From positions 8,860 to 49,911 of the forward strand of contig NW_004457733.1 in the NCBI RefSeq assembly GCF_000313135.1: DNA of 41,052 nt, in the 5' to 3' direction. The translations under genes and the position numbers were made by a program. Of this stretch, positions 35,401 through 41,052 are shown piece after piece. This DNA is from Acanthamoeba castellanii str. Neff (lineage: Eukaryota; Discosea; Longamoebia; Acanthamoebidae). The notes under the pieces were generated by a model. The model was given only the letters and a program-made list of their open reading frames with translations. It was not told the origin of the DNA and made no database searches. Positions within the stretch are counted from its first letter, which is position 1, and each line of letters starts with the position of its first letter.

Positions 35401-36983
35401 CAGGGCGGTGCTGTGGCTTCGCGTTCGTTCCGCCTCGTCCGGGTCAGCCATAGAGATGCTGAGCTGTGAGTCCGAATCGACAGTGCCGCTGGAGCAAGGG
35501 GCGTCTTGGTTGGCAGAACTCTGGCTCTGGGACTCGGCCGGCAGAACTGGAAAGTCCTCTTCCTTCAAGCACGCTGTGGAGATGAATCGGTGGTGTTGGT
35601 GATGCTAAGGCTTCAAAGGCTCAGCACACACACGACACACACGACACACACGACACACACACGGGAGAGAGAGAGAAAGGAGAAAAAGAAGAGAAAAAGG
35701 AGATACCTCGCTTCTCCACGCTCTCGTAGAGCCATCGCGGGTGAACGACTTTGACGCTTCCCCATAGCAGTGCGTACTGGTGTTTCTTTGATCCCGGTCG
35801 CTGCTCACCAACACACCACTTCAACACCCCGTACGCGACAAAAAAAAAGAGGTTGGATGTGGCGCGTAGGTACGTACCTCGACAATGAGATGTGTGCAGC
35901 TCCTGTTGAGATCGCTCGAGTACTGCCCGCCATGCTGCATGCAGAGCCGCTTCATCTTCTCGCGCTCGTCTAACAAATACCCACAACAACGACGATGAGT
36001 GGCGATGCACACTACACGACACGTCTTCTTCATATCACGCTCAGAGTGTTTGACAACAAGTACCGTGCGGGAATCCGGTGACGGTCATGGTCAGCCCCGT
36101 GAACGGTGGGACGGGAAACTGGTCGATGGGGACCAGCGCCTGCTGCTTCCAGCACTCCGTCACCCAGCTGGGGTGCACCAGCGCCGGCCGGCCGCGCTGG
36201 ACGGCCACCTTGTACTTCTCCGAGCCCGGCATGTAGGCCAGCATGTGGGTGACGGTGTTGGTGAAGTCCATGTGCCACTCGCCGCCCATCCACAGCACGC
36301 GCTGGACCAGTGCGCTCTGGCGGTGTCGATGACGATGCATCGTTAGCTTGTCTTCTTCATGAAGAAGAAGAAGAGGCAGCAGCAGGGGAGTAGATGTGGG
36401 AGACGCACCCGCATGTCTGCGCTGATGGCGGTGCTGCATACGACGGCGCCGAGCAGGAAGCGGGCAAAGAGGGGACTCCGCCGTACCGCCTCCCTGTCCG
36501 GCAGTTGGTAGCGCCTCTCCGCGGCTTCCACCACACAAGGAGGGCCTGCAGCCCCGGCGGACGTGGTGAGCCACCACAGGCGAAGAAGGCGCGAAGTGGT
36601 GCGGCAGCAAAAGGCCACACCAGAGAGCAGGAGCGCTTTGAAGGACGTACCAATGATAGGGAGCAGCTCTTTCTGGTACTGCAGCAGCTCGGCCTACTCA
36701 CGGCACAAGACCACAAAGAGCGGCAGCGTGTTATTATGATGAAGATGATGATGATTGGGGCATTGTGCTACGAAGCGATGAATTAAAATACGAGAAAAAG
36801 AGAGACAGGAGGCACCTCTGCGTCAGGTTGTGTGAAGAGGGGCAGAACGTGGAAGCATTTGGAATCGCCGGGCTGCTCCACAATCTGCCCACCCTGGTCC
36901 GCGATGATTTTGCGCAGGTTGCGGTGGTCTTCCATCGACAGCCGATTGGAGAGGAAGAACTTCACCCCCGCGAACACCGACAT
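29450..36983 (-). CDS. TOPBP1: TopBP1 homologue, multi-BRCT checkpoint and replication scaffold
   Basis: TopBP1 (Dpb11/Rad4) binds phosphoproteins through BRCT domains, activates ATR and helps start replication. 27 exons give 1647 aa (human 1522): 36983-36816, 36693-36651, 36545-36409, 36316-36064, 35969-35878, 35818-35707, 35573-35172, 35108-35037, 34926-34811, 34719-34623, 34528-34404, 34342-34228, 34148-34054, 33928-33717, 33655-33457, 33358-33271, 33186-33101, 33006-31996, 31914-31804, 31694-31604, 31461-31349, 31192-30859, 30725-30530, 30410-30316, 30227-30117, 30017-29842, 29743-29450. BRCT modules: an N-terminal triplet (about 1-269; YKVAVQRGRPALVHPSWV, CTHLIVE, VKVVHPRWLYESV), a central pair (about 445-650), one at about 725-820 and a C-terminal pair (about 1360-1575; CTHVVMAEPVRTEKSLAACA, GAFAGWRVLVVHY, LTAEYIGDFL). 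The C-terminal pair tracks human BRCT7/8 closely. Linkers are Ser/Glu/Lys-rich; exon 18 (337 codons) is acidic with His and Thr runs. Confidence 0.93.
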
Positions 36984-37190
36984 GATGTCTCGCTCTCCTT
37001 CTCCTCCTCTTTCTTATTACTTCCAATGCTCAACTTCTTCCTCCCTTTATCTTGCTACGCGTGTGTCGAGCCTTTGCCCAGACTCGAAAAGATGAAAACA
37101 GATTGAAAACTGCCAATTCTTCATAATCCTCAAAAATGCCAAAAAAAAAGAAAATGAACACCAGATAGGATTACGGCGGAAACATCAAAG
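36984..37190. promoter_or_regulatory. Divergent promoter, TopBP1 / small membrane protein
   Basis: 207 bases separate the opposed start codons. The TopBP1 side is pyrimidine-rich on the plus strand (CTCTCCTTCTCCTCC). The middle has an A-rich tract (about 37138-37155). No named motif is clear. Confidence 0.5.
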
Positions 37191-38189: not shown

Positions 38190-38405
38190 CTCTGTCCTTC
38201 CTTCTCTCAGCTGGCAACAGTTGTTTTGTGGTGGTGGTAGTGGTGGAACAGAGCTTGACGTCCTCGCTTCCCCCTTCTGGCGACCTTTAGGTAGGTACCC
38301 TACCAATCCGGCAGCGCTGCTTGGGAGCTCAATGCCATCTTATAAGTAGCTGCTGACGTATTTATTCTGCCTTTTTTTTATTTCAATCAACACTCCAGGT
38401 GTAGA
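38190..38405. promoter_or_regulatory. Divergent promoter, DAP1-like / F-box-barstar
   Basis: 216 bases between opposed ATGs. The plus-gene side is AT-rich (GCTGACGTATTTATTCTGCC at about 38352 with a half CRE-like TGACGT, then CTTTTTTTTATTTC). The minus-gene side contains a TGGTGGTGG tract. Confidence 0.5.
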
Positions 38406-39659
38406 ATGATGGAGGTGCCTGCGGAGGTTTTGGCCGCCGTGTTTGAGTTCCTGCCGGAGCGGGAGCTCCTCCTTGGCGCTGCCCTTGTCTGCCGCCGTTG
38501 GCACACCCTCGCGCACCACGCACCCTCTTGGCACCAGCGCTGCCTCCGCTTTGGTGCAATGTTGTTTATGTAATTAAATAATTAAATAATTAATTTTACT
38601 TTGACAATCATTACCATGTTGTTCATTCTATTTATTATTTTTTTTAAGTAAAAAATATTTACCAATTATTTGCTGCGTTATCAGCGGGCAGGCGGCCGGG
38701 AAGCGGCGATCGTCCCATCTACGTGCCGGCCTCGCCCCGCGCGGAGACGTGCGAACCAGCCGAGGTCGACTGGGCTCAGAGTTTTCGCCTCATGGTTTGG
38801 TCCCTCTCCGCGCTTGTGTGCGTGCGCGTGCGCGTGTGCGTGTGCGGTCGTGCGTCTGATTCGTGTTGCGCGCGACAACCAACACACCCGCGCAGGTACA
38901 CCTGCGCAAGGCGCTAGCGGCCAACGCGGCGCTGTTGCTGAGCGAAGAGCACAAGGCGCGCTTTGTCATCGACGAGCTGCGCGGCCGCTGCGCTAAAGAG
39001 CAGGAGGAGGTGCTGGTGTGCGACTTGGCCGGCGTCACCGCCAAGTCCGCTGCGGCTGCGGCTGCGGGCGAATCGGTGAAGCAGCGGTTCCACAGCGCAG
39101 TGAAGGAGGCCTTTCGCTTTCCCGACCACTACGGCCACAACCTGGACGCCCTGAACGACTGTCTCGGCGACCTCGACTGCGATGCCGCCCACCCCTGTAC
39201 GTCACACACGACACATAAGACACACGACACGACACACGACACACGACACGACCAACGACACGCACGGCACGCATGGCACACACGCAGCTGATGGTTGTTG
39301 CGGTGGTGGGCGTGCAAAGTGGTGCTGGCCAACATCACGGCCGACGTCGTCGCCGATCCCGACACCCGGTGGCCCGTCGTACTCGAGATCCTGGACGAAG
39401 TACTGGTACTACACGCCGCACCACACTCGCTCATGTACACTCGCCCGCGGCCATGATTGATTTGCTGCATGTGCCGTGCGTGTCGTGTCGTGTCGTGTGT
39501 GGTGCGTGGCGCGTGTCGTGTCGTGCGATGTCTTGCTGCGGACAGAACTTAGCCGAGAAGGCCGACGAACCAACGAAGCTGGTCCTCTGGTTCACCCCCG
39601 AAGCAGCCCGGCTGCAGGCGGGCCAGCAAGACGAGCTGCCCTTTGGCACGTGGGCCTAA
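38406..39659 (+). CDS. F-box-barstar fusion protein
   Basis: Exons 38406-38553, 38685-38794, 38896-39196, 39320-39405, 39546-39659 give 252 aa. The N terminus is an F-box (EVPAEVLAAVFEFLPEREL ... LVCRRWHTLAHHAPSWHQRC), the Skp1-binding part of SCF ubiquitin ligases. After a linker (about 50-120), residues about 125-250 form a barstar domain: strand EVLVCDLAG, helix VKQRFHSAVKEAF, the core FPDHYGHNLDALNDCLGDL, then LVLANITAD, WPVVLEILDEVL and LVLWF. Asp170 and Asp174 match barstar Asp35 and Asp39, the main barnase-binding residues; Tyr29 is His and Trp38 is Asn. Exon 4 uses an AAG acceptor chosen for frame. The first intron is strikingly AT-rich and the others carry host-type repeats, so it is a resident gene. 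The role is inferred: a ligase adaptor that could capture an RNase or other protein. Confidence 0.85.
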
Positions 39660-39713: not shown

Positions 39714-40963
39714 TCAGAAGCCATAGAGATCATCATCAGCACTTGGCGGGCCGGCGCGCGGGTCTGCCCACGGTCCCTTGCGCGTTTCCTGATGCGTTGC
39801 GCGTGCGTGTGTGAGCGATCGCACGAAGCACACAGCGCGCGCGCACACACACACACACGGACCTCCTGAATGGGGATGCCGAACTCGCGCTGCCAGACGT
39901 CGTTGGTCCGGGTGAAGTTGGCCTCGGCATAGTGCGCGTCGGGCCACGGGATGTGCTCCAGCACGCGGCCCGTCAGCCTCTTTGTGCCCTCCCTGCGTCG
40001 CGCTCGTTATCAGCCCCACGACACATGGCACACGACACGACACGACACGCACGGCACACGACACGACACGCACCGATAGAGGGTCGGGTGGAACATGTGG
40101 AGGTGCCACATGAAGTCGATGGCGTAGGTCGGATGGGCCATCTCGTCGCCCTCGTAGATGTGGCAAAAGTAGAGGAAGTGCTCGTAGGCCTTGGCCGCGA
40201 GGCCGTACCAGCCGGCCGTCGGGTAGAACCCGTACGAGCTGCCGTTCTCCTTGACGAAGTGGCCGTACCACTCGCCGTCCTTTACCAAGTCCTCCACGCT
40301 CAAGCTATGTGTGCGGTGCGTGCGGTGGTTCGTGTGCGGTGCGCGTGTGCGGTATGCGTGTGTGGTGCGCGTGTGCGGTGGTGTGTGTCAGCCAGGGCCA
40401 AGAAGAACCACCTGCACGGGTTGACTCACCTGAACGGGCAGGCCCAGTCGGCGGGAACCGAGGCCGGCACTGTCGACTCGGAATTGAAATCGCGCGGCTC
40501 ATACCTGCAGCACAGCAGCGCGCAGTGCGTGTCGTACGTGTGAGCCGCGTGCGAGCCGCGTGTGTCGTGTGTGCGGTTGTGTTGCGTGTTGTGTTACCAG
40601 AGGCTCTTGTTGCCCTCCTCTTGGATGGTGCAGCTCAAGGCATGGTCGCGGAAGCAAGGCATCACCTCCCGCACCGGCTCATCGGGAATCTCGCAGTACT
40701 TCTCACCTGCGTCGCGTGCGGCGAGTGCGGTAAGTTCAGACCACATGTGGCACACACGACACAACCGCACACACGACACACAAGACACACACACACGGGG
40801 AGGAGCGAAGGTGGACGAACCGAAGGTGCGCTGCCACAGGTCGGCCGTCTCGCGCAGGGCCTCGTCGAACACGAGGTAGTCGCCATCGGTGCCCACGATG
40901 CGGTGGTCGATCACCTCCGGCATGCGCAGCACCTGCTGCATATCGCGCGCATAATCTTCCGGC
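39714..40963 (-). CDS. GRDP/DUF1399-like protein, 3' part (5' end outside window)
   Basis: Six exons are visible: 40963-40821, 40706-40598, 40504-40430, 40304-40074, 39992-39863, 39788-39714. They encode about 254 residues ending in DDDLYGF. The family (glycine-rich domain protein-like, DUF1399, known from plants and fungi) has a recurring unit: a hydrophobic helix, a W/I-WH-x-H-x-x-HP motif and a later W-x-x-x-FG. This is clear in IDFMWHLHMFHPTLYR, HIPWPDAHYAEANF and DVWQREFGIPIQE. An upstream exon holds the end of another unit (DYLVFDEALRETADLWQRTFG), so at least two units are present. The visible part lacks a glycine-rich tail. Its molecular function is not established. The WHxH motif could bind a metal, but that is inference. 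It is convergent with the F-box-barstar gene, with 54 bases between stops. Confidence 0.8.
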
Positions 40964-40978
40964 CTGACCACACGACAC

Positions 40979-40984
40979 ACACAC

Positions 40985-41051
<67 letters not shown>
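40979..41051 (+). repeat. CA microsatellite in GRDP-like intron, at window edge
   Basis: A CACACGACACAC start grades into an uninterrupted CA tract of about 65 bases to the window end. It lies in the intron just upstream of the first visible GRDP-like exon. Confidence 0.9.

Positions 41052-41052
<1 letters not shown>

Follow-up and report, generated by a model that had tools for sequence, protein, structure and literature searches.

The gene ACA1_019020 of Acanthamoeba castellanii str. Neff, whose product is filed as an uncharacterized protein, almost certainly encodes an F-box and a barstar domain joined in a single gene. It was analysed within a stretch of 41,052 nucleotides (NCBI RefSeq assembly GCF_000313135.1, contig NW_004457733.1, positions 8,860 to 49,911 of the forward strand), here called the window, whose numbering is used for all positions below.

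The fusion of an F-box to a barstar domain

An earlier note made from the DNA letters alone had proposed the fusion, and searches with the spliced protein bear it out, both domains being found above the curated Pfam cut-offs. The F-box (residues 4-48, about 38415-38549) matches PF12937 (F-box-like) with an E-value of 1.1e-10 (41.5 bits against a cut-off of 24.3, profile positions 4-47 of 47) and PF00646 with 8.9e-5, and the barstar domain (residues 148-223) matches PF01337 with 1.7e-14 (54.0 bits against a cut-off of 23.4, profile positions 14-89 of 96). Both domains also pass without any splicing, PF12937 with 8.1e-12 on the frame 38346-38553 and PF01337 with 1.4e-12 on the frame 38860-39201. 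The spliced protein is 250 amino acids long in one open frame, or 252 if exon 4 ends at 39405.

The exon chain adopted here (Table 1) was picked by domain match and guanine-plus-cytosine (GC) content and is not imposed by the sequence, because many open chains exist: 1500 when GT and AG sites are enumerated in chosen ranges, and 40 when the first two donors are kept to those of the adopted chain. If the donor at 38554 is read through, the frame of exon 1 meets a stop within 20 bases, and the F-box on its own would therefore be a 55-residue peptide. Furthermore, given all 452 first-look F-box candidates in the 38.4-Mb genome, only 0.004 F-boxes are expected by chance in the 665 bp that precede a given point on its own strand. 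The closest other F-box in the genome has an E-value of 2.7e-4 and 37% identity, so that no close duplicate is seen.

The deposited protein (P0001, 232 residues) could be rebuilt exactly from the exons in the window and uses the same five exons, with exon 1 shortened by a donor at 38497. The 57 bases omitted by that donor are exon-like in composition (68.4% GC) and code for the latter half of the F-box, which is nearly complete only with the donor at 38554 and scores 19.0 bits in P0001 against the cut-off of 24.3. The donor at 38554, chosen by homology and base composition, thus appears to restore the F-box. Because the deposited model takes the F-box below the Pfam cut-off, the fusion is readily overlooked in databases; the UniRef name of P0001 is that of an F-box protein, while its precomputed Pfam list contains barstar alone.

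The identity of the barstar domain, also claimed in the earlier note, agrees between the Pfam, PDB-profile and fold results, and the possibility that barstar is a second-rate match was rejected on that ground. A search of the whole genome (38.4 Mb, 250 contigs) with PF01337 at E ≤0.001 returned exon 3 of ACA1_019020 as the sole match (1.8e-11). In a Foldseek comparison of the AlphaFold model, the nine best PDB rows are all barstars, with weak E-values of which the best is 0.12. The first predicted model is poor, with a mean predicted local distance difference test score of 56.5 and its best-placed barstar at Foldseek rank 7 (E 2.2); VIA ranks barstars first. The second predicted model has a strand at residues 167-170 and a helix at 184-200, both from exon 4, and a strand at 207-210 from exon 5, and the barstar matches finish at model residues 211-213. 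Barstar strand 1 was located by homology, and the second model has little strand at that place. NCBIfam gave no family for the four proteins tested, and PADLOC no defence system for P0001 or P0003.

The binding surface

The segment FPDHYGHNLDALNDCLGDL of the fusion protein corresponds to barstar residues 26-44 in the standard numbering, which is also that of Tyr29, Asp35, Trp38 and Asp39. The acidic pair of the binding helix (DxxxD) is present, with D150 and D154 of P0001 aligned to Asp35 and Asp39 of PDB barstars, whereas Tyr29 is replaced by His and Trp38 by Asn; these are the residues that the earlier note had named. In addition, Trp44 of barstar is lost. The note had set the two replacements out as a caveat, but they weigh little against RNase binding because they are ordinary among bacterial-type relatives. 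Among the 55 other rows of one alignment (A6), 31 have His and 22 have Tyr at position 29; at position 38, 40 have Asn, 12 have Arg and none has Trp; and all 55 have Asp at both 35 and 39. In a second alignment (A3, 59 rows including P0001), 51 rows have Tyr and 5 have His at position 29, 54 have Asn at position 38, 55 have Asp at position 35 and 56 have Asp at position 39. Asn takes the place of Asp35 in two rows from Gemmata.

The helix-2 binding segment of P0001 is identical to those of its relatives at a mean of 0.81-0.84 by bin, compared to means of 0.69-0.73 for pairs of relatives equally diverged outside the segment (90th percentiles 0.79, and 0.89 in the highest of four bins). The comparison is biased in favour of P0001, since the relatives had been retrieved through words in common with P0001 or with its first matches, and it is taken only as a hint.

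Bacterial relatives and their loci

The barstar domain was most likely acquired from bacteria. Relatives were taken from three sets of matches, one of 7, one of the best 120 of 265 and one of the best 120 of 1485, with many rows unnamed. All named relatives among these are bacterial (including Streptomyces, Micromonospora, Dactylosporangium, Microtetraspora, Nocardioides, Gemmata and Zavarzinella); the earlier note had suggested looking for the same fusion in amoeba genomes, and none of the matches listed bears the name of another eukaryote. In a tree of 59 rows, P0001 has a branch of 3.14 and falls next to a Streptomyces row (support 33/33), which does not settle the donor lineage.

A barstar usually, though not necessarily, has the gene of its cognate barnase-type RNase next to it. 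The bacterial relatives look like stand-alone barstars. Four RNase queries against 22 of their loci (6 plasmid, 16 genome) gave a best E-value of 0.42 and no RNase gene beside a barstar, although a PF00545 RNase is found somewhere in 13/16 of the relatives' genomes. Seven plasmid barstar loci were found and six opened, two of which (H1 and H3) share one barstar protein. In the six, no listed neighbour is named ribonuclease, in a plasmid gene table that is incomplete; the neighbours include DUF4253 in 3/6 and an SMI1/KNR4 family protein, a NucA/NucB deoxyribonuclease domain protein and a Fic family protein once each. The DUF4253 gene directly follows the Streptomyces plasmid barstar in the loci L027, L030 and L036, of which L027 and L036 are the two that share one barstar protein, and one may guess that DUF4253 is an immunity family. 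In a passage on immunity genes, arrays of such genes lacking a toxin are described as a reserve against the toxins of other strains (PMC3482391), and a stand-alone barstar would fit this reserve-immunity reading.

Possible function of the fusion protein

The product of ACA1_019020 is probably a substrate adaptor of a Skp1-cullin-F-box (SCF) ubiquitin ligase. This role, which the earlier note had put forward, is a fair reading because the F-box is nearly complete and the genome has matches to Skp1 (3, best 9.7e-30) and cullin (21 exon matches, best 1.3e-80), next to 452 F-box candidates with 150 scored matches. The layout is also that of an adaptor, with a separate C-terminal binding domain, the barstar, behind the F-box. 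The note's second step, that the adaptor recognises an RNase, is more conditional: a barnase-fold RNase is a possible ligand of the barstar domain, though somewhat short of an even chance.

The proposal that we favour, which carries no more confidence than its ligand, is an SCF adaptor in which a captured RNase-immunity domain serves as the receptor and grips a barnase-type RNase. The N-terminal F-box would dock on Skp1, as its domain suggests, and the C-terminal barstar-fold domain would act as the receptor, still gripping a barnase-type RNase that is delivered by, or set free from, bacteria that are eaten or hosted by the amoeba. The bound barstar domain would mask the RNase active site and present the gripped RNase for ubiquitination, and a one-to-one antidote would thereby become a catalytic disposal system. 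Carried further, the captured domain would be an intracellular immune receptor through which the SCF sends barnase-fold toxins or effectors of prey, symbionts and invaders to the proteasome, a scenario that we consider unlikely rather than implausible. If it were true, one receptor could dispose of many toxin molecules. Should a bacterial RNase be the ligand, a bacterivorous amoeba would possess a cell-autonomous defence in which toxin recognition is coupled to the ubiquitin system and which is made from the antidote of the bacteria themselves; the protein would also be nature's equivalent of engineered degraders, in which a binder is fused to an F-box. The interest lies mainly in direct testability, with one gene, one expected partner class, a known tight-binding chemistry and an amoeba strain that many laboratories use.

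The strongest competitor is that the protein is indeed an SCF adaptor, but with a barstar fold repurposed to bind an endogenous amoeba protein that has no link to RNases, a substantial possibility although short of probable. The points that weigh against an RNase ligand are those that suit such a host ligand: the barstar domain is far diverged outside the helix-2 segment, Trp44 is lost, and an exon-by-exon search of the entire amoeba genome gave 0 matches to the PF00545 RNase family. According to a passage of PMC3482391, moreover, the SUKH and SuFu immunity superfamilies have taken on functions specific to eukaryotes. On the other hand, the two key aspartates have stayed, as has most of the helix-2 segment, for which there is no obvious reason after a change of ligand, and the kept Asp35 and Asp39 therefore argue for a bacterial barnase-type RNase. 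Within the limits of the exon-by-exon search, the absence of PF00545 makes the amoeba's own RNase an unlikely target; the note had left open whether the RNase was the amoeba's or bacterial and had suggested looking for barnase-fold RNases in the genome, and of its two options the bacterial one is possible. The absence of an own RNase loses most of its force against an RNase ligand because the RNase could come from bacteria.

It is improbable that the protein is a plain RNase inhibitor, with an F-box that chiefly governs where the protein itself is found or how it is turned over, and with no degradation of the RNase. Barnase is neutralised by barstar alone, and turnover of F-box proteins along with their SCF is common; both would suit such an inhibitor. 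However, F-boxes fused to a binding domain are, to our knowledge, as a rule substrate adaptors, and nothing specific in this gene favours a mere inhibitor.

Less probable still is a recent relic, a bacterial gene transferred to a place beside an F-box exon and yielding no useful protein. Its occurrence in one species only among the matches listed, the single barstar match in the genome and the long branch of P0001 in the tree would agree with this, but the gene has five exons and four introns, with the frame open through the entire barstar fold. Furthermore, the exon-3 stretch is the same in a second source, a Joint Genome Institute (JGI) contig (P0002), while the introns differ: the two are identical over 59 matched exon residues, and the translation of P0002 shifts frame within introns 3 and 4. 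P0002 looks like it comes from a close strain, and its exon identity is weak evidence of selection. Finally, that the F-box exon and the barstar exons are two genes linked by a gene-model artefact is hardly credible, since the 1500 possible open chains that would allow it stand against the short peptide that the F-box alone would give, its place on the same strand and next in line, rarely expected by chance, and a deposited annotation that links the same exons.

Other folds that serve as bacterial immunity proteins were also looked for in the amoeba genome. SMI1_KNR4 gave 0 matches. SUFU gave 2 matches, one above the cut-off and neither on the ACA1_019020 contig; a SUFU-domain match lies at G000:C90:793109-793240 (L025, 4.1e-7). 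For a partner RNase, Ntox21 (PF15526) was also tried and gave 0 matches, which has no weight as the control genomes gave none either.

Gene structure and surroundings

Table 1. Features of ACA1_019020 in the window
Feature	Position	Strand	Description
Whole coding sequence	38406-39659	+	ATG at 38406, TAA at 39657-39659; five exons, all GT-AG
Exon 1	38406-38553	+	Two ATGs (38406, 38409); F-box; GC 66.9%
Intron 1	38554-38684	+	AT-rich, 19.8% GC; start at 38497 in deposited model
Exon 2	38685-38794	+	Linker; frame open within the chain; GC 70.9%
Exon 3	38896-39196	+	Helical linker followed by strand 1, helices 1 and 2 and the binding loop of barstar; barstar from about 39007
Exon 4	39320-39405	+	End at 39399 or 39405, frame kept either way; barstar strand 2 and following helix
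Exon 5	39546-39659	+	Barstar strand 3 (barstar until about 39596), C-terminal tail, TAA
Asp35 codon	39145-39147	+	Basis: sequence, PDB barstar alignment, relatives' alignments
Asp39 codon	39157-39159	+	Basis: sequence, PDB barstar alignment, relatives' alignments

Intron 1 is an odd AT-rich island in a GC-rich gene, compared to 58-66% GC in the other three introns and 64-71% in the exons.

Bacterial contamination was rejected as an origin of the locus, which has introns and neighbours that are presumably of eukaryote type or matchless. Among six neighbouring stretches scanned, one is GRDP-like (above cut-off), one resembles BRCT models (all matches below cut-offs) and four have no match; the former two are presumably eukaryote-type. 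The GRDP-like neighbour lies downstream on the minus strand at 40010-40387 (PF07173, 4.2e-7), and the possible BRCT exon upstream on the minus strand at 36783-37013 (PF00533, 20.5 bits vs 21.3; PF16589, 23.3 vs 27.3). A viral carrier was also considered, and neither of two exact peptide patterns was matched in viral contigs. At 40970-41052, a long AC dinucleotide run marks the end of both window and contig, and probably broke the assembly.

Comparison with known systems

The earlier note knew of no described F-box-barstar system. In open-access PubMed Central text, no description was found of such a protein or of ACA1_019020, although the protein itself was already public under its F-box name in UniRef and its barstar label in Pfam. 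The available text of PMC4209131 contains 0 occurrences of barstar, barnase or SUKH. Eukaryotic barstars were listed in 2012 for dictyosteliids, Naegleria and chlorophytes (PMC3482391) and thus also occur in amoebae; the part of the paper that holds this list does not mention any fusion to an F-box, and Acanthamoeba is absent from the list. What appears to be new is the joining of an F-box to barstar, whereas barstars in eukaryotes were already known.

The fusion has the barstar fold in common with bacterial stand-alone barstars (PF01337), such as those of Streptomyces decoyicus (293 amino acids), Nocardioides (137 amino acids) and Zavarzinella. The S. decoyicus motif FPDHYGHNLDALNDC has Asp35, Asp39 and Asn at the place of Trp38, as in the fusion protein. 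However, Pfam detected no F-box in three bacterial relatives, while the amoeba gene has introns, an F-box and a helical linker.

Like other SCF F-box adaptors (PF12937/PF00646), the fusion protein has an N-terminal F-box and a different, C-terminal binding domain. The usual receptor domains of F-box proteins are leucine-rich repeats, WD40, Kelch or similar, whereas the receptor here is a bacterial RNase-immunity fold. A parallel comes from FBXO3-type proteins, which combine an F-box with SUKH (SMI1/KNR4), also a bacterial immunity superfamily. These proteins would be a precedent for linking an F-box to a bacterial immunity fold, though one that differs from barstar.
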